This document shows, in pieces, positions 7,565 to 62,285 of a DNA stretch of 64,000 bases. The position numbers were made by a program, and so were the translations under genes. The stretch's first letter is position 1. The number at the start of each line of letters is the position of its first letter. Below the pieces are notes generated by a model, which worked only from the letters and a program-made list of their open reading frames with translations, was not told the origin of the DNA and did no database searches. Source of the DNA: Entophlyctis helioformis (Eukaryota > Chytridiomycota > Chytridiomycetes > Chytridiales > Chytriomycetaceae); assembly GCA_025526915.1 (NCBI GenBank), contig JAHLKH010000116.1, positions 1 through 64,000 of the forward strand, given 5' to 3'.

Positions 7565-9579
7565 TTACAGAGGCGTCATGGCAATGGAATCAGACTGAGC
7601 AGCGGTCATGGCGGCCTTCTTGGCTCTGTTGCGATAGACCATGGCAACCTTGACAATGACTGCAAGGACAATCACACCGACGAGCAGAATCGAGATGATG
7701 GACTCTGTTCCCAAAGGCTTTGGTGGCTCTGCCACTGTCAATAGAACACCAAGGACGTGTCAGTGTTTTGGCTTATTGCCAGGCATGCGATGGTGAGCAT
7801 GACGTGGCGTACCTCGCATGCACTGGCTGGCAACTTCCTCATATGTAAACGTGATGCTTGTGTTGCGAGTATCGCATTGATCATACCAAATTCCTGCAAG
7901 GTAGAGGCTAGTGTTGCCTCCAAGCTTTGGATTGTTGTTGAGTCGCCTGTTGTGAGGATGCGAGTCAGCATTGAGGCGCTTGCAATGAAGCTGAGAGTGG
8001 ACTGGCAGCTAACAAGTACTCAAATGTCTTGCCATCCAAAGCTGCCGACACGTTTCCTGACAGCTGGTTGTTCTCGAGTGACCTGCTCATTCATCCAGCA
8101 AGAGTGGTTAGTGCATGGCATGCGAATACACCAAGACTGTCATTCTTGTTGATGACTTACAGATATCTGATACTCGACAGGTTTCTGAAGGATGCCGGGA
8201 TTGGACCAGTGAGCTGGTTGTTGCCCATATAGCTGCATTCAGCCAACACGGTGGTTAGAAAATCATGTGAATGCAATGTCGTGAGTGCAGCATGGAACGG
8301 ATACAGTGACTTACAGGCTAAAAAGCCGCAACTGGCCCATAGAGTCGGGGATTGGGCCAATCAGCTGATTATATCTCAGATCTCTGCATGCCAGTGTGTC
8401 AGTCATGCAGCATCGCACGATCCAAATGCGGTTACAATGGTGTGCATTTACAGGCTGCTGAGGTATGGAAGACGACCAATGGTTTCCGGGATGCTGCCCG
8501 AGATGCGGTTAAAACCGGCATTACTTGGCAGGCAGGGCCATGAATGTCAGTCCATGATGCAAGCAATGCAGTCAATGAAACTGAGATGCATTTGTTGGCT
8601 TACACATATCTCAGGTTTGTGCATCTGACCACGCCATCAAGCGTGCCGGTGAAGCTGTTGTTGGAAAGGCTCCTGTACAAGCAAAGCATGACGCTGTCAG
8701 CTTCAACCAATGCACGACCATGGCCAATGGCAAGCATGCAACTTACAGACTGTACAGCTTTGGGAGAGCAGGCAGTGCCGACAGATCCGAGGCAAACTGG
8801 TTGTACGACAAGTACCTGTTTGGATGGTCAGCAAGAAGATGGTCCAGATTGCTGCTCAGATGGACTCACAGGTAGGTCAAGTTGGGCAAGGGCTTGAGAA
8901 CATCGAGCGAGCCAGAGAGTGCATTATAGCCAAGATCCCTGCTCATCGCCATTGTGCGAGTCAGCGGCAGATCTTGCTGCTTGCAAATGCAGCCAGTGCA
9001 CAGGCACAACTTACAGGATTTCAAGAGAGGACATGTTGCCAAAGATGGCAGGCAGTGGACCCGACAGCTTGTTGCCATGGAGGTCAAGCACCCTCAGCTT
9101 TGTCAGGTTTCCCAAGATCGGAGGCACGGGACCCGACAGCTTGTTGTAGTAGAGGGCCAGCCTCTCCAGCTTGGTAAGATTGCCAAAGCTTGCTGGGATG
9201 GTGCCTGTCAGACCGCTGCTGATAACTATACTACAAGAGGCAAGGGGTGAGTGGAGTGCAACAGCAGAGATGAGCTGGTACAACTCACAGCGAGACAAGC
9301 TCAGTGAGCGATCCAAGCGACTGTGGCAGCTGGCCGGCGAGACTGGTGCCAAAGAGTGAGCTGCAACGGTTGAACAAGGTGGCGTTCAAGCGGTGGTCAG
9401 CAAGGAGGGCCAAGGAGGTGGACGGCAGTGAAGATGGCGGCTCACAAGGTGTTGACTCTGCCGTTGGTGCACTCGACTAGGACAGCGGTTGTATTGGTAA
9501 GGGGGCAGCAGTTGGTGACATTGGCAAAGGCCGACGGGAACGCCTGGGCGAGAACAGCGCAGTCTGCCGGTGCACTCAT
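7565..9579 (-). CDS. Leucine-rich repeat transmembrane protein
   Basis: Twelve exons (9579-9446, 9360-9289, 9230-9015, 8938-8870, 8815-8747, 8672-8604, 8523-8452, 8383-8315, 8232-8161, 8082-8014, 7946-7813, 7734-7565) join in consistent phase to 404 aa. An N-terminal Cys cap (ADCAVL, NCC) is followed by about 11 plant-type LRRs such as NKLSGPVPPILGNLTKLRVL. A 44-residue linker, one transmembrane helix near residues 355-375 and a short basic tail close the protein. Eight exons are 69 or 72 nt and one is 216 nt (3x72), all in phase 2, so exons equal whole repeats. No N-terminal signal peptide is present. It resembles the LRR gene at 16996 in its N-terminal cap. A cell-surface recognition or adhesion role is inferred; no kinase domain is present. 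Confidence 0.88.
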
Positions 9580-52412: not shown

Positions 52413-52665
52413 CCTAGTGATCTGACTCTAGTGGCAATAGGGCGAGGGAATGCCGGCAAACCGCCGGCAAATGGCCCGACATTCAAACAATTACCAAGCG
52501 TTTTGGAATTGGATTCGACCCGAGAGGCGACGGATGCAAGCGAGCACATCACACGATGGAAGGTTCGAGTCAGCAGCGAGCAGGCGACGACAGGCGGGCG
52601 AGGCACATCCAACGAGATGCTCACCTTGCACCATTGTTTGAATAATGATGTGATAAAGTGACCCG
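52413..52665. other. Spacer 3' of the Fanzor gene with GC-rich hairpin
   Basis: These 253 bp lie between the Fanzor stop and the prenylcysteine oxidase ATG, both on the minus strand. A perfect inverted repeat GCCGGC-AAACC-GCCGGC lies at 52452-52468. In TnpB and Fanzor elements the guide (omega) RNA is usually encoded at this side, so this is the place to look for it. It must also hold the promoter of the next gene. Confidence 0.35.
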
Positions 52666-55600
52666 TTAGGTCGATCGGGAGGTGCCCCGATTCAAAGTGT
52701 TGGTGGTTGTGCTGGAAGTCAGAGCACGTGGAGTGGCACTTGACTTGCTGGCACGCTGTCTGCGTGTTGGACGCTGCTGGACGACAGGCGGATCTGGTGC
52801 TGGAGGCTGCTGGACGACAGGCGGATCGACTGGCGTGTGCGTCAAGTAGAGCGGCCGTTGTCCAAAGAGCAGATGCTCCAGTGCAACCATTCCGATGTTG
52901 GTGGCTCCAAGCACATCGCGGTGGTAGACAGTCTCGCAGTCTGTGCACTCGTAGCGTCGCAGGTTGGTGCGGTTCTTGTATGGGATCCGCTGCTTGCACT
53001 GCGGGCACATCTGGCTGGTCAGGTTCTCGTTGCAGCGGTAGATCTGTGTGTGTGTGTGTGTGCATGATCGTGTGTCAGTTGGTGCACAGATGGATGGATG
53101 GATGGACAGCGTGGCATCAGACGCACATAGGCATATCCAGACGACCGCAGATGCCTGATGAGAAACTTCTCAAACACAGCGTGCCTGCCACCTTGGCCTG
53201 TAAAGTCGATGCCAAATGCCCACACAACGGGAATGTCCTTCTCTGGGTTGCCGACAGGGAGGCCTTGAGATGCATCGGATGCGCGCTTGCCAGTGGTCGA
53301 TCCTGCCAGCTTCATGATGCCCTCAAGAGCCTGTCCGCGATCTGACATGCGCTTGCAGCGCATGGCAAACCGCTTGTCCTTGACCTTCTGTGGAATGCCA
53401 TGCCATGCCATGCCGTCCAGTGTGATCAGCAGGCAATCAAGCAGCATGGCGGCTGTGCCAATGGGCATCCAGAACCAGAGAAAATGTACCCGTGCATTCA
53501 GGAATGGCGAGCAGTACGCATGGCAGCGCAGATCCCAAAAGGCTCTCTCGCCTGCTGTGGCGTTTGGATCGGCATGCTTTGCTGTCTTGAATGCAATGGC
53601 CTCGTGGACGTCCGCAGCCTTGGCATATCGATTGTTGAGCCTGGCACAAGAGGCAGGCACTGTGAGTTGATCTGGTCAAGAGTGCACATGGCAGAGTCAT
53701 TGCATGCATACCACCGCTGAAAGATGCGCTCAGCATGAAATACGCCAGAGGAGAGCACGTAGTTGGCCTCGAGCGTGTATGTCTCCTCCTTGACATTGAC
53801 TAGCATGCTGGACGCACCAAACAGGTACCTTTCGCCCCAGTCAAAACTGACAACGTGAACAGTCTGGTAGCCTTGGTCGGTGAGCAGCTTGTTGGCATCA
53901 GCAACATCGGGCAGTCGCTGCGAGGCGTAAAAGTTGCACTTGACCTGTCATGCCATGGCATGAGTGAGGAATGTGCAATGCATGTGCACCAATGCGCGAG
54001 GTTGGCATGCAAGTGGCTTACAGGATTGGGCGTGTATGGCTTGGCGGCTGATGAGTCGGCTGGATTGGCGGCTGTGGATGGCATGTCAGTCGGTGTGGAC
54101 AACAAGTACGCGTCTGGATTGGCACAGCAACTCACATTCGCCATCAAGGCTATCATCCAAGTCATCATCCAAGTCATCATCCAAGTCATCATCCAAGTCA
54201 TCGTCAGAATCAGAGTCATCAGCATCCTCAACCTGACTGGGCTGCTCGTCTGAAGTCGCCGCGCTGGGACCTGCAGAGCAAGGCAGTGGTCAGAATCAAT
54301 GCGTGCACCACAGCATCCAAGCACGCCACATACTGCGAGGCGACTTTGGACGGTTTGTGCGAAACTCCAGAACAGTTTGAAAGACACTCTTCCCGTCGGT
54401 CTTGATGCTGCCAAATCTGACCGACTTGGTTGGTAGCACTTGAGGAAGAGCATCAACCTCGGCCTTGATCACGTCCACCGACTGCTTGTCGTCCAGTTGA
54501 AGATCGTCAGCCTTGGCTTCTTGTGTCACGTCCGCAGTTGCTCTGGCCTCTGCCGCGGTGTCGGCCGGGTCAATCTGCAACTTGGCCTGTGCTGGCGTTT
54601 GATAGCGCCGTGTATCAGAGGCGAGTCCAGGGAGGAGGAGATCCATGACGCACAGCTCATCACTTGAACTGAACGCCTTGTCGATGGCTTTGTTTGGCAA
54701 TGCAAGCTCCAAGTCTTTCCAGTCAAGCTCTTTGAGAAGCCAGCCAGGCTCTTTGAGAAGAGTGGATTGTTAGCATCAAATCATAAAAAGATGGCATAGA
54801 CAGGCAGTGTGACTGACTTATGGCAGCAAGAAGCTCCGATCTCAATGCTCGCAAGACGGGATCTTGTGACTTGCTGGTGCGATCCCTTTTCAGCCCCATA
54901 ACCGCCCAGAAGAGGACGGTCTCGGTGATAAGAACAAAGGGATCACGACTTGCCGCCTGAGGACAAAGCTTGATGCTCTCTCTTCCAGCGAGATCACGCA
55001 GTTGCTTGAAGCGTCCAACAGTTGACAGCGACATGTTGCGTATGATGGCCACGAGCTTGTGCAATGCTGGCGGGGTCACGACAGCGCTCTTGTTCCCTGC
55101 GGTGCCCTTGGCGGCCGGCTTCTTGCCGCGTGCCTTCTTGGTCGCGCCGCTCTTGTCAGTGGCCGACGATGAGCTTGACGCGGTCTGCTCATGGCTTGCT
55201 GCAGGAGGGGTGGTGTCAAGATCAGCCGACGATGGGTTTGGCGCTGTACTCTTGCGCCTTGCTCTCTTGGGTTGTGTCGGGCTTGACGCGGCGTCCTCAG
55301 TGCTTGACGCCACACTCGTTTGTCTCCCTCTCTTGGCCGCCGATGGTCTTGGCGCGGTGTCCTTGGCAGCAGCAGCCTTGGCGGCCTTGTTGGCAGCAGG
55401 AGCCTTGGTGGCTTTGGCAGCAGCAGCCTTGGCGGCATCAGCTTCCTTGAACAGGGATTGAACCAACTCTTTCGCCTGCTCGCGAGACATTTCGGGAGCA
55501 AGCTTGATGGCTGCACCAACCGCCAGGTCGAATTGACTTCCAATGTAGTGCCGCGCGAGTATGGTGCTCACCTCTCTGGCGAGGTTGTTGAAGATGTCAT

Positions 55601-58600
55601 CTGTTGCGCTCCCGCAGAGAGTGTTGTCCAGGCGGTATGGTAGAGCTGCCTGATACGTGACGTCCTCCTGCATGTCCGTCTGGATTGTGTCGGCCTGCTG
55701 CGCGCCATTCTTGTCCGCGTACATCTTGTCCGCACTGGCCTGCACCGTCCCGCGCGTCCATGCGCGGTGGATCATCAACTGCATGACAGTGACGACCCAT
55801 GCATTGATCGTCTCCATCTTCAAATCTGGCTTGGCCATCTCCTTGCCGGTGAAAATGAACGACAGGTGGCGAAAGATGCAGGCCACAGTTGTCTCGCCGC
55901 CAGAGGTGCTGTTGATGAGTGCCGTGAACAGCTGGTTGGATGTCGGCACTGTTGGTGCTGCTGCTGCTGGCTGCTGAGGCTGCTGAGGCTGCTGAGGCTC
56001 GTCAGGTTGCTCGTGATCGTCAGGCTGCTCGTGAATGTTGGCATCCTCGTGAATGTCGGCATCCTCGGCGTCCTCAGGCTGCTCGGCGTCCTTTGACTCC
56101 TTGGCTATCTTAGGCTTCGTGACCTTCTTGGGCTTCTTGACCTTCTCAAACATAACGTGCTCGAGTCTTGTACCTGTCGCCAGTTGCACCGGATGTCCAT
56201 ACCGAGGCTCCTCGCTTTCGTGATTGTACAAACTCAAGCCGTACATGAGGCGGGCAGTGACGTCCTTTCCGAGGGTGAATCGACCCGAGAAGAGCTCCGC
56301 CTTGGTCACGCCGCCGAGGCAGTCGATGCTGGCATGGTCGCCGAGGTCGTCTGTCAGAGTTCCTGCTCGAGTGCAGCGAAGGCACAGGGAACTGCGGGTC
56401 TGCAACACAGACAGAGGGAGAGGAGCTGTCAGGCGACAGCGTCTGAGGCAGGCAAATGAATATGTATTGTAAGAAGTACCTGCAACACAGACAGAGGGAG
56501 AGGAGCTGTCAGGCGACAGCGTCTGAGGCAGGCAAATGAATAGAACAGCAAGGGAAAGGCAGAGACGCAAGACATAGAGTTGGAAAAGCCAACAGACGAT
56601 AATCTAACATCGTCGATACCCTTGAAGTCCAGGTCCAAGAAACAATACCGCGTCGTCTTGTCATCGAGCCACTTGTACACGTGGTACTTGGGCGGGAGTG
56701 GCGCATCCGCGTTGAGATCAAGTAGCTCTTCGACGATGGCGCCAATCACGACGAACCCAGCATGCCGAACACCGACCGTGAACGAGTACACCTTTACAAA
56801 TGTGTCCTCGATGATCAGACGCCGCGTCCATATCTTTGGCATCTTCCTGGCTTCGATGCCATAGACCTTGGCGCTTCCTGGATCGCCCGACAACATTTTC
56901 TGTGCACCACGCCAACCTCTGAGTTAGTCCATGCAAAGCCATGCATGCAGGCAGAATGGCAATCCTAAATCGTACCTTAAGCAGCACTCTCGCGCCATGA
57001 TGATCAGGCTCGTCCACGGCAGGCTGATCTGGCGCATCCACAGCAGGTTGATTGGTTGCTTGCTCTGCCGTTTGTTGATCATTGCTGCCGATCGCCGCAG
57101 AGAGGGACATGAGTGGCCCTGTAACAATGCGACCCAGCTTTCGAATCAGCAGATGTAGTGCCCATCGTGAGCGACGCACAATTCTGCCAAAACACGTATG
57201 TCAGCAAGAGTACTCAAGGCAAATGGCACAGCATACATCACTTACCCCTGTCTCGAGCCACCAGGCAAACTACTGCGGGCAAAACGGCTCGACTTTCCCT
57301 TGTTTGCCTTGATGGCCCTCAGTGTCGCGGCCTTTGCAGCTTGCAATGCGCTACTCTTCATGAGCGCGGCCTCCTGCTTCTTTGTGAATTGAAGTCGTGG
57401 CTGTGGAGGTTGGATGCAGCATGAGCAATGCATTCCGAGTGCACACAATGCATATACAAGCGCCAATGGTACATCAGAACTAACCGTCGTCTTGGTGTCT
57501 AAATGTCGATTGAGAGAAAAGACCACGGGCTGTGCTTCTTCCACCTGAGCGTCAACAGAGGGCTGTGGTCGCTTACGCCGCTTGCGCCGCTTTGGAGGCC
57601 GAGCCTCCTGCCAATTGGAGAAATGAGTGATTGCGACAAGTCAGTACATGCACACACACAGTCAAGATGAAGACGCACCGAGGCTTCCTTGATGATCGAC
57701 TCTAGCAGTTTGATGGCCTCGTTCAGCTGCTCGACAAGTGTCACTGATTCGCCATCCGTGCGAGATTTCAGGTCGTTCAGCCGTTCGGTGGCCTTTCTGT
57801 GGATCTCGGCCAAGGATTTTTGGGGATCGTCCTGCTTGATGACCTTGCCTTTCTGCTTGCCTTTCTGCTTGCCTTTCTGCTTGCCTTTCTGCGTGCCTGG
57901 CTGCGTTTTTGGTTCTTGAATAGCACATTCAGCATAGAAGGTGTTGTCAGTACATGGCATCGAGTCATTCCAATGCAAGCCAAATGTACGTGGAGTTGAA
58001 ATATCCTGAAAGGATACGCAGCAAGGATTCACAATTTTGCCCAGCTGCACCTTCATCCTCCGAGCTGCGCCCTGTCCAATGCACAGCGGATTGAGTTAGA
58101 CAGTTCAAGGTGAGAGATGCACATGCATCCAAGTCATGCCATAACGTACATGTGTGTCCCAAACAAGCCGATCAAGTCGACCAAGCTCTGCGTGTACTGT
58201 CGGTAAAAGGGATTGCTCACGGACAAGCTCCAACAGCTGCGCACTTGCTGTCCTGCTGATCTTGGCTAGAATGTCACGGCCTGCGACTCCATCGGGGTTG
58301 CGAGCAAGGTAACCTGGCACGTGCTTGACAATGCAGTCGAATGCAATCGGACATCGCTTGACCTCGTAAAAAGTTGTGGCCATTTCGCCGTTGTTGACAA
58401 TCTTGTCAGGTGCCCGTCGATATCCTTCTGCGTCAGGTGCACAATTTCAGAGTCGGGATTGCGTTCTTGCCACTTGGAGTGTACAAGGAGGCAGCCAGCA
58501 GATGAGCATCTGCATCGCGATCCAACAATGACATCAAAGACAGGAACGCAGAGTCAGCAATGTGAGAGACTTCAAGAGATCGCATGCATGCGTACCTTGG

Positions 58601-60102
58601 TTGAGCCGCGGTGGTCGTGTTGGCAGCCTGGCTGCTGTCATTGCCACGTAGCAATGGATGGTCAGCATGGTGCTATGCATGCAAATGCATCTACAGTGCC
58701 ACGTGCTTGGCCAGTCATGCAATGACTTGCCTCTGCCCTTGCACATCGCCAGATTGACCGTTGTTGCTGCTTGGGGCTTTGAACTGGCTGGCAATGTTTC
58801 CCGACTTGTCGTGGTACACGAAAACAGAGAAGGCATTGAGGAACGACTTGACGAGGTCCTCGCCTCCGATCGCCAACAACTCGTCAGAGTAGGCGGCCCT
58901 GACATCCTTCTTGAAGTCGCTGGCAATGTTGGGGGTGTGGAGCAGGACGCAGAACTCCTCCGGCGTGATATTCCTCTTGCGCGCCGCCTCCTCGACGTAC
59001 CTGTTGACGGTGTTGACGGCAGTGCGCAGACCTGCAAGACGATGTGAGTAGCAACACGTGTTAGTCAACACCACAGTTTGGACGACAATACAGAGCATCA
59101 AGACAGGAATCGCACGCACCACGCCCGTAGCAATCAAAATAGTCACTCTTGCTCAATGCAACAACAAGTTGGCAAGCTCCAGGGAATTCGTATACTCCGA
59201 GGGCAGACGCAAGAGATACGATGCCTGAATGGTTGAAAGACCGCAGGTTGGTGGCCTCCGCGTTCCGCATGGACATCATGATGACGGGACAACGTCCAGC
59301 ACAGTGCGCGACGAGATCAGAGTCGTTACAAATGACGGCAATGGGAATGTCGCTGCTGCGAGACAAAGACTGTTAGCCGTTGATCAACACAGACAGTTGC
59401 CATGGCGATCTATACCTTGGCTTGCTTGCATGGTAGGCTACATGGCGGGCAATGCAAACGTCCGCTTCGTGCTTGCACCAGCATACTGCACGCCACGGCT
59501 CAGACCTGTAGATCTCCGCGATCGCCTCGTAAATCAGCTGCTTGTCATTGTGCGTGAGCGTGAACGAGAGCAGCAGCGCACGCTTCTCTTTCCTGGATCA
59601 TTGACTGAGAGTTAGAATCGCCTCGATGCGGCAGGACAAAGTGGACATACTTGGATAAGCGCTTGTATCTCTTGCGTTTGCGGCGTCTGCGAATACACTG
59701 TAGAACTGTGCCCACCGCATTCAGGACCTTGATCGCACGGCCCTTGTGGACAATCTTAATCCCAGAGTCGCCAAGCCTGCCGTCAACGTGGAACATGTAG
59801 GCGTACTCGGGGCCAAACTTGTCCGTGAACGAGCTAAGTACCGGCTTGAGGATCGGTATCCACTCGGCCTTTGACAACGGGTGATCGGACCCTCCTCTCC
59901 TGAAGTGCGGAAAACACACACTCATCACATCGACAAGGAAGGCACCGCGGTTGCTGGGTGTGGCCGTGTTGGTGTCGTTTGGATCTTGTGACAGTCGTGC
60001 ACTGCCAAGCACAAGCTTCGACACCAAGGACCAGGGCACGTCCTTGTGTACGCTGCCGCCGCCATTCTCCACCACACACGAAACAACCGCAGAGACCCCC
60101 AT
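52666..60102 (-). CDS. XPG/FEN1-like nuclease fused to Fanzor (eukaryotic TnpB) RuvC nuclease
   Basis: Exon ends, minus strand: 60102-59651, 59592-59416, 59355-59120, 59031-58731, 58634-58596, 58509-58150, 58071-57679, 57607-57485, 57400-57246, 57183-56976, 56899-56609, 56399-54818, 54750-54334, 54270-54136, 54071-54022, 53944-53712, 53640-53490, 53387-53127, 53043-52666. All phases match except for one apparent missing base near 58418. The first 390 residues resemble XPG/FEN1: MGVS start, FLVDVMSVCF, a basic arch, KHEADVCIARH, AVICNDSDLVAHC and CYGRGLRTA like a helix-hairpin-helix. The last 340 residues are Fanzor/TnpB-like: RuvC-I SFDWGERYLFGAS, VVWAFGIDFTGQGG, ENLTSQMCPQC and zinc ribbon YECTDCETVYHRDVLGATNI with the RuvC-III Asp. 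The middle is Lys-rich and unassigned. It is a likely RNA-guided nuclease or transposon protein. Alternatively two adjacent genes split near exon 7 (RMKVQLGKI). Exon 4 uses a GC-AG intron. Confidence 0.7.
54155..54202. repeat. 12-bp coding minisatellite (x4) in the Fanzor gene
   Basis: Four perfect copies of atccaagtcatc lie within exon 14 and encode an Asp-Asp-Asp-Leu-type acidic repeat on the minus strand. Confidence 0.95.
56400..56462 (-). repeat. Duplicated 3' splice site region, copy 1 (used)
   Basis: This 63-bp pyrimidine-rich intron end plus AG, immediately before exon 12, is identical to the copy at 56480-56542. Confidence 0.92.
56480..56542 (-). repeat. Duplicated 3' splice site region, copy 2
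   Basis: This identical 63-bp copy lies 80 bp further 5' in the same intron, also ending in a CAG acceptor. Use of this acceptor would insert about 80 nt and shift the frame. Confidence 0.92.
57845..57892. repeat. 12-bp coding minisatellite (x4), Lys/Gln repeat
   Basis: Four perfect copies of ttgcctttctgc lie in exon 7 of the XPG-Fanzor gene and encode Gly-Lys-Gln-Lys repeats on the minus strand. Confidence 0.95.
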
Positions 60103-60124
60103 GTCGTGCTCGCGTGTGCGCGGT

Positions 60125-60136
60125 TGTGCGTGTGTG

Positions 60137-60185
<49 letters not shown>
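60125..60185. repeat. GT/AC microsatellite at the 5' end of the XPG-Fanzor gene
   Basis: About 60 bp of nearly perfect GT dinucleotides begin 23 bp upstream of the proposed start codon (60102). Confidence 0.95.
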
Positions 60186-60192
<7 letters not shown>

Positions 60193-60999
60193 TGGTTGTG
60201 CGTGTATGGGGTTGCGTTATGGACAGGCAAGGGTGTGCTGAAGAGGGCAATGAGCGACAGGGAGTCTCGTCAAAAATGTATCAGTGTATGTGGATGGTCG
60301 AGCAACCACAGACGGGCCAACCGCTCTCTTTATGACAAACACAGCGGCCGTGTTGTTGCAACTGCCACAGATGATCACATCTGTGTGTCTGAGATTTGCA
60401 ATGTTTGATTCATGATCAGTGGCACGTCACCAAAACGCGACCCAGGCACATGAACGCGTTGATCTGGAGTGTTGATTGCAAAAGATCACCATGCCTCATC
60501 CTCCACAAGCGCAGTCGTGGATGGCAAGCTGGCCTCGGCGGTGAGTCTGGCACGAGGTGTGTGCTCTTGTCGATGAGCATGCGCAGCTGGCTCGCCTTGA
60601 TATCTGATCAGTTGACACCAAACTCAACTTGAATACTCATGGATACACAGTCACTCTGATCAGTGAACAGATGGCGTTGATGCAGCCCATCTTGGCTGTG
60701 GCGGCTTGATGGCCACTGGGCGGCACACCAAGGGCTCTCCTGCCTGTGGCAGTCTCAACTGGCACCTGTTTGCATCCAGCCGGCACTCTTTTGCGTGCTG
60801 CAGAGACAACCGTGCCATAGCAGACCTGGATGCCTTGGTTGAATGAGCAACCAAAGACTTGCTTGATGCTCAACGGGGTTTGGGTGTTGGCATGGTAGCC
60901 ACAGCACTGGTTGCCCATCCAGCCTTGTTCATAGGGTCCATGCCGCAGTTGGAATCACCAAGTGCGCATGGAATTGCTAGATCTCATCCGTGTGAATAC
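60186..60999. other. Intergenic region
   Basis: This is the promoter side of the XPG-Fanzor gene. A 93-codon minus-strand frame at 60918-60637 (GNQCCGYHANTQTP) could be a 3' exon of the weak ORF at 61343, but I could not join it in phase. No confident gene. Confidence 0.4.
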
Positions 61000-61343
61000 C
61001 TCCAGCCTGATGCCCAGCCCTCCTTTGTGCTCTGAGCAGTACTGAGATGCGCCATATCACTATCCGGCTCTTTGGAACAGAGATTGCCAACCAGTGCCAT
61101 GACAATCCTCCAATCTTTGACCGAGTAGTCATCCCAGATCTCACAAATGTGTCGCACTTTCTTGTGATGATGGTGCAAGGCAAGTTTCTCCTTGGGCACA
61201 GTGTCTTCATTGCCGACTTTGGATGCTGTTGACTTCAGTCGCCAGCAGGTCTGGGACGACTTGTTCTTTGCAGCCTGCAGTCGATCAGCCCTTTGTTGTT
61301 GACCGAGACTGTGCATGCTGCTCGTCATTGCATTTGCGGGCAT
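61000..61343 (-). CDS. Possible exon of an unknown gene
   Basis: From an ATG at 61343, 114 codons read like protein (KVRHICEIWDDYSVKDWRIV, then ALVGNLCSKEPDSD) and end at a GTATTC donor in phase 2. A start region rich in Gln/Ala/Lys and a His run are visible, but no domain. Two downstream acceptors give short, implausible tails, so the 3' end is unresolved. It may be a gene fragment or a remnant linked to the Fanzor locus. Confidence 0.3.
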
Positions 61344-61464
61344 GCTGACAAGTCAGGTGGGCGTGGCTGTTGGCTGTGGATGACGGGGTGCGACGACATC
61401 GTGCCTTGAATGAATGACATGTTGATTATCTGCGCTGCTGGCTGTTGCAAAGACACTCGTCGCT

Positions 61465-62094
61465 GTGACCTTGCTGTCTACACCAAGGCAGCCAGGGCAG
61501 GTTGACATGAGTGTGAGCAGGATTGCTGCAGGCATTCTGTGTGTATCGCCTCGACAGTTCTCAAAGTCAGACCAAGCCAAGCGCGATGCCTTACAGCAGC
61601 TTGATGATACGCAGCAGCTCAACGATACGCCGAGTGATCCATCCATGACCTCGTTGGTGAGCTCGTCTGCCTCTTGTGCGATGGCTGTCAACAGTTGCGA
61701 CTCTGTTGACACTGTGTGCCTTGCCAATCTCAACGACAACAAGGACCTTGCAGGCGAGCCTGGACAGCCAGCCGTTGCTGCAGCTGCCACGCCAACAGCC
61801 AGCCGCCAAAGAGCACCAAGCAAGCGGAAGAGAGCAGCAGCAGATGCCAGTGCGTCTGTGTCGCCTGTGACGTCGCCTGTTCGGACATTGCAGCAGGCCG
61901 CCCCAGCAGCACACACAAGAGGGCCGCCTGGAGGCAGAGGGGCAGCAGCCGCAACAGACAGTCGCACGACAGTTCTTGGTGACACTACCAACATGCAACC
62001 AACTGCTGCCCCTTGGACAGGCTCAGCAGTCCACAAGCAAGCGTCAAAGCGGGCACGACTTGAGAAGGCATCGCCTGCAGGCTGCTCAAAGTGA
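61465..62094 (+). CDS. Low-complexity ORF with basic cluster, uncertain
   Basis: A 209-codon frame rich in Ala, Ser, Thr and Gln with a KRKR basic cluster (RAPSKRKRAAADAS), reading like a disordered nuclear protein. The opposite strand is also open over the same DNA (61353-62036), and no intron, TATA box or domain separates the two readings. The plus-strand frame has the more protein-like composition. It is listed only as a possibility. Confidence 0.25.
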   Translation: MTLLSTPRQPGQVDMSVSRIAAGILCVSPRQFSKSDQAKRDALQQLDDTQQLNDTPSDPSMTSLVSSSASCAMAVNSCDSVDTVCLANLNDNKDLAGEPGQPAVAAAATPTASRQRAPSKRKRAAADASASVSPVTSPVRTLQQAAPAAHTRGPPGGRGAAAATDSRTTVLGDTTNMQPTAAPWTGSAVHKQASKRARLEKASPAGCSK

Positions 62095-62285
62095 CTGGGA
62101 ATTCGGACAAGAATATGAAATTGGATTCAAAAAGATTGGAAATTGGATGCCAAATTGAACAAAATTCGAGGCAAACCAGCCGACCAATCAGGTGCCGGCA
62201 CAGGGCTCTCTATGGGAAAAACACAGAATTACCTGCAATAAATACACGCGAGCGTGTGCGATCCCGGCCTTTGGTGGAAACAAAC

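Follow-up and report, generated by a model that had tools for sequence, protein, structure and literature searches.

Bao and Jurka (2013, PMC3627910) described Fanzor proteins by the motif D-X(125,275)-[TS][TS]XX-[C4]-X(5,50)-RD; these proteins also carry a glutamate six residues before a CxxC pair and have a RuvC-I motif that is almost exclusively DPG (PMC10711439). The Fanzor SPu-1-1p consists of 633 residues encoded in a single open frame, and some Fanzor elements also hold a separate second endonuclease gene, two of which are described as being of the GIY-YIG or restriction type (PMC3627910). In MCi-2, a Fanzor element of Mucor circinelloides for which 11–12 bp target duplications and no recognisable inverted repeats are reported, the 5′ regions are variable and the 3′ Fanzor-encoding region is nearly identical (PMC3627910). 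We analyzed a 64,000-nucleotide (nt) stretch of the genome of the chytrid Entophlyctis helioformis (contig JAHLKH010000116.1, positions 1 to 64,000; hereafter the window), which contains a gene that apparently joins an N-terminal XPG-like nuclease to a C-terminal Fanzor nuclease within a transposon of approximately 9.8 kb.

The product of this gene is like Fanzor1 and Fanzor2 (PMC3627910, PMC10432273, PMC10711439) in that it contains the full motif and the rearranged glutamate, and in that its gene is part of a mobile element, the end of which is 233 nt past the stop codon. It is unlike them in having DWG at RuvC-I and about 1,670 residues, the XPG-like part included, before the RuvC-I aspartate. 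As in the two-nuclease Fanzor elements, a Fanzor and a second nuclease are found within one element, but the second nuclease is XPG-like in this case and forms part of the Fanzor protein, whereas in those elements it is separate. The copies of the element are 5′-variable and 3′-homogenised like those of MCi-2 and, unlike MCi-2, two of them have short inverted ends. The N-terminal part resembles the XPG/FEN1/EXO1 family (Pfam XPG_I and XPG_I_2) in its ordered acidic motifs, and its best Pfam match is to the catalytic core of XPG_I_2, but this similarity falls below the cut-off. An XPG-like part and a Fanzor in one protein constitute a real and apparently new architecture; the term "XPG" is absent from the main text of three Fanzor papers (PMC3627910, PMC10711439 and PMC11423790), in a literature check that is incomplete.

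The predicted protein consists of the N-terminal XPG-like part, a long middle region without an assigned fold, and the C-terminal Fanzor RuvC domain and zinc ribbon. The gene and its diagnostic exons are as follows:

52666..60102, minus strand: XPG-like/Fanzor gene, 19 exons, about 1,980 codons, with one frameshift in exon 6
58731..60102, minus strand: exons 1–4, probable XPG-like nuclease part (alignment A1, ordered acidic positions, sub-threshold XPG_I_2)
53712..53944, minus strand: exon 16, RuvC-I motif VSFDWGERY with the predicted catalytic D1675 (alignment A2)
52666..53043, minus strand: exon 19, rearranged E1861 (ENLTSQMC), four-Cys zinc ribbon and D1898 of HRD (PF07282 and motif tests)

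A first-pass annotation of the window had proposed one chain of 19 exons with splice phases that agree throughout. We recovered the 19 exons and the outer coordinates (60102 and 52666), and every motif quoted in that annotation was found at its place; the phases, however, are not unbroken. A one-base frameshift is present in exon 6, near 58.4 kb, so the window copy is probably non-functional. This frameshift is absent from all 14 other copies in that alignment, several of which have exon 6 indels of their own. In the window copy, GT-AG splice sites are found at 17 of the 18 introns and GC-AG at the remaining one, and the introns are 58–102 nt long, the sole exception (209 nt) lying inside a private insertion.

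The exon structure was compared with that of other copies by spliced alignment of the protein to 16 of 23 long loci (L021–L040 and L045–L047); most of the other seven, which were left unspliced, are degenerate or truncated at a contig end. The comparison covered the 17 introns outside the private insertion, judged by residue and phase. Six introns (after residues 150, 522, 694, 1640, 1768 and 1855) have the same position and phase in all 16 copies, three (after residues 401, 815 and 1717) are common to 15 copies and four (after residues 209, 288, 653 and 745) to 14, which brings to 13 the number found in at least 14 copies. The remaining four are found in 8 to 12 copies (after residues 388, 1578 and 1623 in 12; after residue 1439 in eight). 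The sharing holds although some copies have only 34–68% identity with the window across a 321-residue stretch that begins at residue 46. These common introns, together with the order of the two parts in the genome, uphold the earlier proposal of a single gene that encodes the XPG-like part at the N-terminus and the Fanzor part at the C-terminus.

The order of the parts was established by scanning the genome (29.6 Mb, 482 contigs), which revealed at least 150 matches each to the TNB domain, XPG-like exon 3 and the RuvC-I exon (150 were scored out of 205, 156 and 206 candidates, respectively). Removal of four fragment rows that repeated copies already present left 146 XPG matches. Among the matches listed, a RuvC exon is located downstream, on the same strand and within 13 kb, in 94 of the 146, and in 77 of these 94 the distance between the two is 4–6.5 kb; the wrong arrangement was seen in only three (RuvC upstream on the same strand in one, and on the opposite strand within 13 kb in two). 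The element belongs to a mobile DNA family whose copy number in this genome is well above one hundred.

The C-terminal part is a nuclease of the Fanzor type and is probably guided by RNA. PF07282 (the TNB zinc ribbon) matches above its cut-off (E 1.2e-11, 45 bits versus 26.3, for the window row) and was found in all six members, which also gave partial matches to guided_TnpB that stay below the full-length cut-off (window row, E 9.7e-7). The published Fanzor motif is present in full, as D1675, 188 residues, TSQM, C1868/1871/1888/1891, five residues and RD1898. The rearranged catalytic glutamate previously noticed in ENLTSQMCPQC is indeed located there (E1861-NLTSQM-C1868), six residues before the first CxxC, and is invariant in 6/6 rows.

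In the N-terminal part, six copies with 34–68% identity to the window row (alignment A1) were compared. Residues D58, D107, E193, D195, D221 and D223 are invariant in all six rows, and D281, within SKSDYFDCYGRG, is kept in five and unread in the sixth (L045). The order and spacing of these acidic positions (D58, D107, E193/D195, D221/D223, D281) resemble those of FEN1, and the last of them is followed by G-R-G, presumably at the place of the helix-turn region of FEN1. A Pfam scan at E values up to 1, performed with eight copies (the window, L033, L037, L039, L045, L046, L047 and L102), gave XPG_I_2 matches that cover the catalytic core in L102 (the best, E 0.0003, 20.8 bits versus a cut-off of 24.2), L045 (E 0.0011) and L047 (E 0.019), and one match in a fourth copy. 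Comparably weak matches to an unrelated family were also obtained (Alpha_kinase, E 0.013, one member), as was a match to 5_3_exonuc_N (E 0.13, one member), and two shorter pieces of L038 had no Pfam match.

The limits of the element and its non-coding parts were located as follows:

52433..62236, gene on the minus strand: whole transposon copy, about 9.8 kb, right end approximate
52433..52665, minus strand: conserved 3′ non-coding end, 233 nt, candidate omega-RNA region, with a GCCGGC hairpin near the terminus
52433..52439, no strand: left terminus, across which most other copies read GAGGGGTGGGCAA; the window copy differs outside it
60837..62236, no strand: upstream (right) module; right ends read TTGCCTGCCCCTC in two of the four recovered copies

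The left boundary at 52433 is common to 13 aligned copies, whose flanks differ except in one pair; in L002, L003 and L007 the similarity is lost before this boundary. On the right, homology stops at 62218 or 62236 in the four copies followed that far. Inverted repeats of 13 bp (GAGGGGTGGGCAA on the left and GAGGGGCAGGCAA on the right, matching at 11 of 13 positions) occur in two of the four recovered right ends, and the other two differ from this form. The left terminus of the window copy is altered relative to the other copies, a feature overlooked in the first-pass annotation.

Three peculiarities of individual copies were recorded at the ends. Two contigs (L037 and L038) carry the element with an identical left flank, and perhaps represent two haplotypes or a duplicated region. 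In L036, around 9000–9035, the left end has a tandem duplication of the element's terminal ~19 bp. The right terminus of L041, near 3209, contains a run of about 18 C residues, compared with four or five elsewhere, which is possibly tied to end repair.

Two other origins were considered and rejected: a chance or one-off fusion is ruled out by the genome census of exon order, and a host gene family by the sharp ends of the element and its differing flanks. No relatives of either the XPG-like or the Fanzor part were found in viral contigs.

The 3′ non-coding end spans the distance from the stop codon to the terminus of the element. Its mean column identity is 91% over 275 nt in 20 sequences (the last 35 nt of the coding region included, and the three more diverged copies L002, L003 and L007 omitted), and its sequence variants are shared across families. 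Neither a structural nor an Rfam signal of a guide RNA was detected at this end.

Comparison of substitution rates revealed that purifying selection has kept both parts of the protein, since the ratio of nonsynonymous to synonymous substitution rates (dN/dS) is 0.23–0.41 in exons 1–4 (eight pairs) and 0.34–0.50 in exons 16–19 (seven of the eight pairs; the L045 pair, with 22 codons read, was omitted), in pairs that are non-independent and whose large dS values are near saturation. The two ends of the gene nevertheless differ in synonymous divergence: with the close copy L024 excluded, dS is 0.74–2.13 in exons 1–4 (seven pairs) versus 0.11–0.26 in exons 16–19 (six readable pairs). The same shift is seen in the introns. 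When the window is compared with L045 or L046, introns from residue 1578 on are 90–99% identical and upstream introns 45–74%; in L033, intron identity to the window shifts from 72–82% to 82–100%. For L033 the changeover falls between the introns at residues 401 and 522, for L045 between those at 745 and 1578, and for L046 between those at 815 and 1623. Because introns and synonymous sites are homogenised as well, and because the changeover varies between copies, we conclude that the 3′ half of the gene has recently been homogenised between families by gene conversion or recombination, most strongly at the 3′ end.

The reading that we favor, with a probability of roughly 0.55, is that of a high-copy transposon of about 9.8 kb which encodes a fused XPG-like/Fanzor protein and would spread by guided cutting and repair. 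According to this proposal, (i) the 3′ end would be transcribed into a guide RNA, with the guide taken from the flank beyond the terminus, (ii) the Fanzor part would cut matching sites, whether these are free of the element or occupied by another copy of it, (iii) the XPG-like part would trim the flaps or ends there, and repair would in this way copy the element, and (iv) the observed 3′ homogenisation would result from repair that begins at the 3′ end and proceeds inward over variable distances. The stronger claim that the transposon spreads by means of a single bifunctional enzyme of its own, an RNA-guided cutter of both strands with a built-in nuclease for flaps or ends, seems to us distinctly doubtful on present sequence evidence; if true, we would be dealing with an RNA-guided homing transposon of a eukaryote and a source of 3′-biased gene conversion across families. 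To our knowledge, known Fanzors rely on host repair after cutting; joined nucleases kept by selection in old lineages would show how a single protein can couple RNA-guided cutting to the processing of ends. Owing to the strong 3′ homogenisation, the question of Fanzor-driven copying is testable from sequence, and the family is a natural system in which to test whether Fanzors drive the copying of elements by repair.

Several results weigh against the favored reading. In the N-terminal part, XPG_I_2 stays below the curated cut-off in all four of the eight scanned copies that match it. PF00867 (four places) and PF12813 (three places) are present in the genome, none of them being a listed transposon copy, and 50 archaeal FEN1s scored no better than shuffled sequences in an hmmsearch with the family profile. 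In the C-terminal part, RuvC-I reads DWG and not DPG, with D-W-G invariant in 6/6 rows (alignment A2), which is a real departure from the near-universal DPG of Fanzors. No intact copy was found among the 16 spliced ones, each of which contains 3–12 frameshifts (these may reflect decay, sequencing error or alignment error), and the middle exons 6–11 are less constrained (dN/dS 0.30–0.73). Among the matches listed, 56 of the 150 RuvC matches are without an XPG partner; 18 of the 27 unpaired ones on the plus strand begin no more than 5.3 kb from the contig start (counted by eye), a position at which the XPG part would fall off the contig, but the 1.5-kb stretch upstream of another unpaired RuvC match (C24) contains no recognisable XPG exon. 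The intron contrast is weak in L037 (71–88% versus 84–94%) and L039 (78–89% versus 80–95%). At the 3′ end, folding is not distinctive (z −1.22) and the covariation term is near zero (+0.17). Finally, a consistent direct repeat (target-site duplication) was not seen by eye in the few copies with both ends.

The alternative that survives best, to which we would give slightly less than even odds, conflicts only with the copying step and is compatible with the fused architecture: an unrecognised transposase, encoded in the upstream module or elsewhere, would move the element, and the fused nuclease would be a passenger favoring retention, as TnpB is for insertion sequences. No transposase was recognised by Pfam in the stretches scanned, which leaves room for one of an unrecognised type and is counted in favor of this alternative, as is the occurrence of published Fanzors in several transposon superfamilies (PMC3627910). 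The upstream module also speaks for it. At least 40 matches to this module were found, and at 23 of the 40 listed places, the window included, it precedes an XPG exon, in the orientation expected; the other 17 are without a listed XPG neighbour. Its identity between copies is 92–96% (in blastn pieces; 96–100% over 61100–61350), even between copies whose nuclease genes are down to 72% identical, and no Pfam match was obtained in the three frames tested. The module may be mobile in its own right, or it may act as a promoter module that the copies share. Against the passenger role stands the observation that the nuclease gene and the 3′ end are common to the studied copies, whereas the upstream module is swapped in five of them, which have a different module after 60330.

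A further possibility, which we consider unlikely, is that the gene is fused but its N-terminus is a PIN-like nucleic-acid-binding or RNA-processing domain, acting for example in guide RNA maturation or the silencing of host transcripts, rather than a nuclease that cuts DNA flaps. Many PIN-type folds are RNases, and the XPG superfamily signal is partial and directed to XPG_I_2 rather than to FEN1. Searches of PDB sequences, NCBIfam and PHROGs with the XPG-like part gave no XPG-type match. AlphaFold models of an unspliced open frame (L045 exons 2–4, introns read through; mean predicted local distance difference test score (pLDDT) 34.8) and of exon 12 (mean pLDDT 41.7) were too poor for a fold search. 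Against the RNA-processing role stand the acidic order and spacing, which are like those of FEN1, and the hhalign comparison with FEN1, which joins the G-R-G and helix-turn regions, albeit weakly (probability 1.5%, E 0.034 versus 0.27 for the control). The assignment of the N-terminus to the XPG/PIN superfamily in the first-pass annotation thus stands with respect to the ordered acidic motifs, but not with respect to similarity at the Pfam cut-off or to archaeal FEN1 and PDB sequences. Because the Pfam matches are sub-threshold and the archaeal FEN1 and PDB comparisons gave no significant match, we label this part XPG-like rather than a member of XPG; a structure-cutting nuclease of this kind is probable, not proven.

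It is very improbable that the 3′ homogenisation results from selection acting strongly on RuvC and on an end that works in cis, instead of from gene conversion. Both RuvC and the terminus are likely to be functionally critical, as this explanation would have it, but the 3′ introns and synonymous sites are homogenised too, and the changeover point varies between copies. Least probable of all is the presence of two neighbouring genes, XPG-like and Fanzor, that share one element and only appear fused: the halves do differ in history (the 3′ one homogenised, the 5′ one not), but the gaps between exons in the window copy do not exceed 102 nt, the private insertion excepted, the introns at residues 522, 694 and 1640 are found in the same phase in 16/16 copies, and a split between exons 6 and 7, named at the outset as the case that would overturn the single gene, is unlikely because the intron between them (phase 0, 76–97 nt) is common to 16/16 copies.

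The private insertion in the window copy is a repeat that is also dispersed elsewhere in the genome:

56352..56609, no strand: dispersed ~250-bp repeat insertion, which none of the 14 other copies aligned over this region contains

The inserted repeat (insertion length 259 bp) has GT...AG ends and could undergo in-frame splicing, and a 4-base overlap is present at the insertion junction. At least 42 matches to it were found in the genome, nine of them, the window included, at 100% identity. Fifteen of the 41 other matches fall between −2.5 and +13 kb from an XPG-like exon, and one (C82) separates two pieces of an XPG exon.

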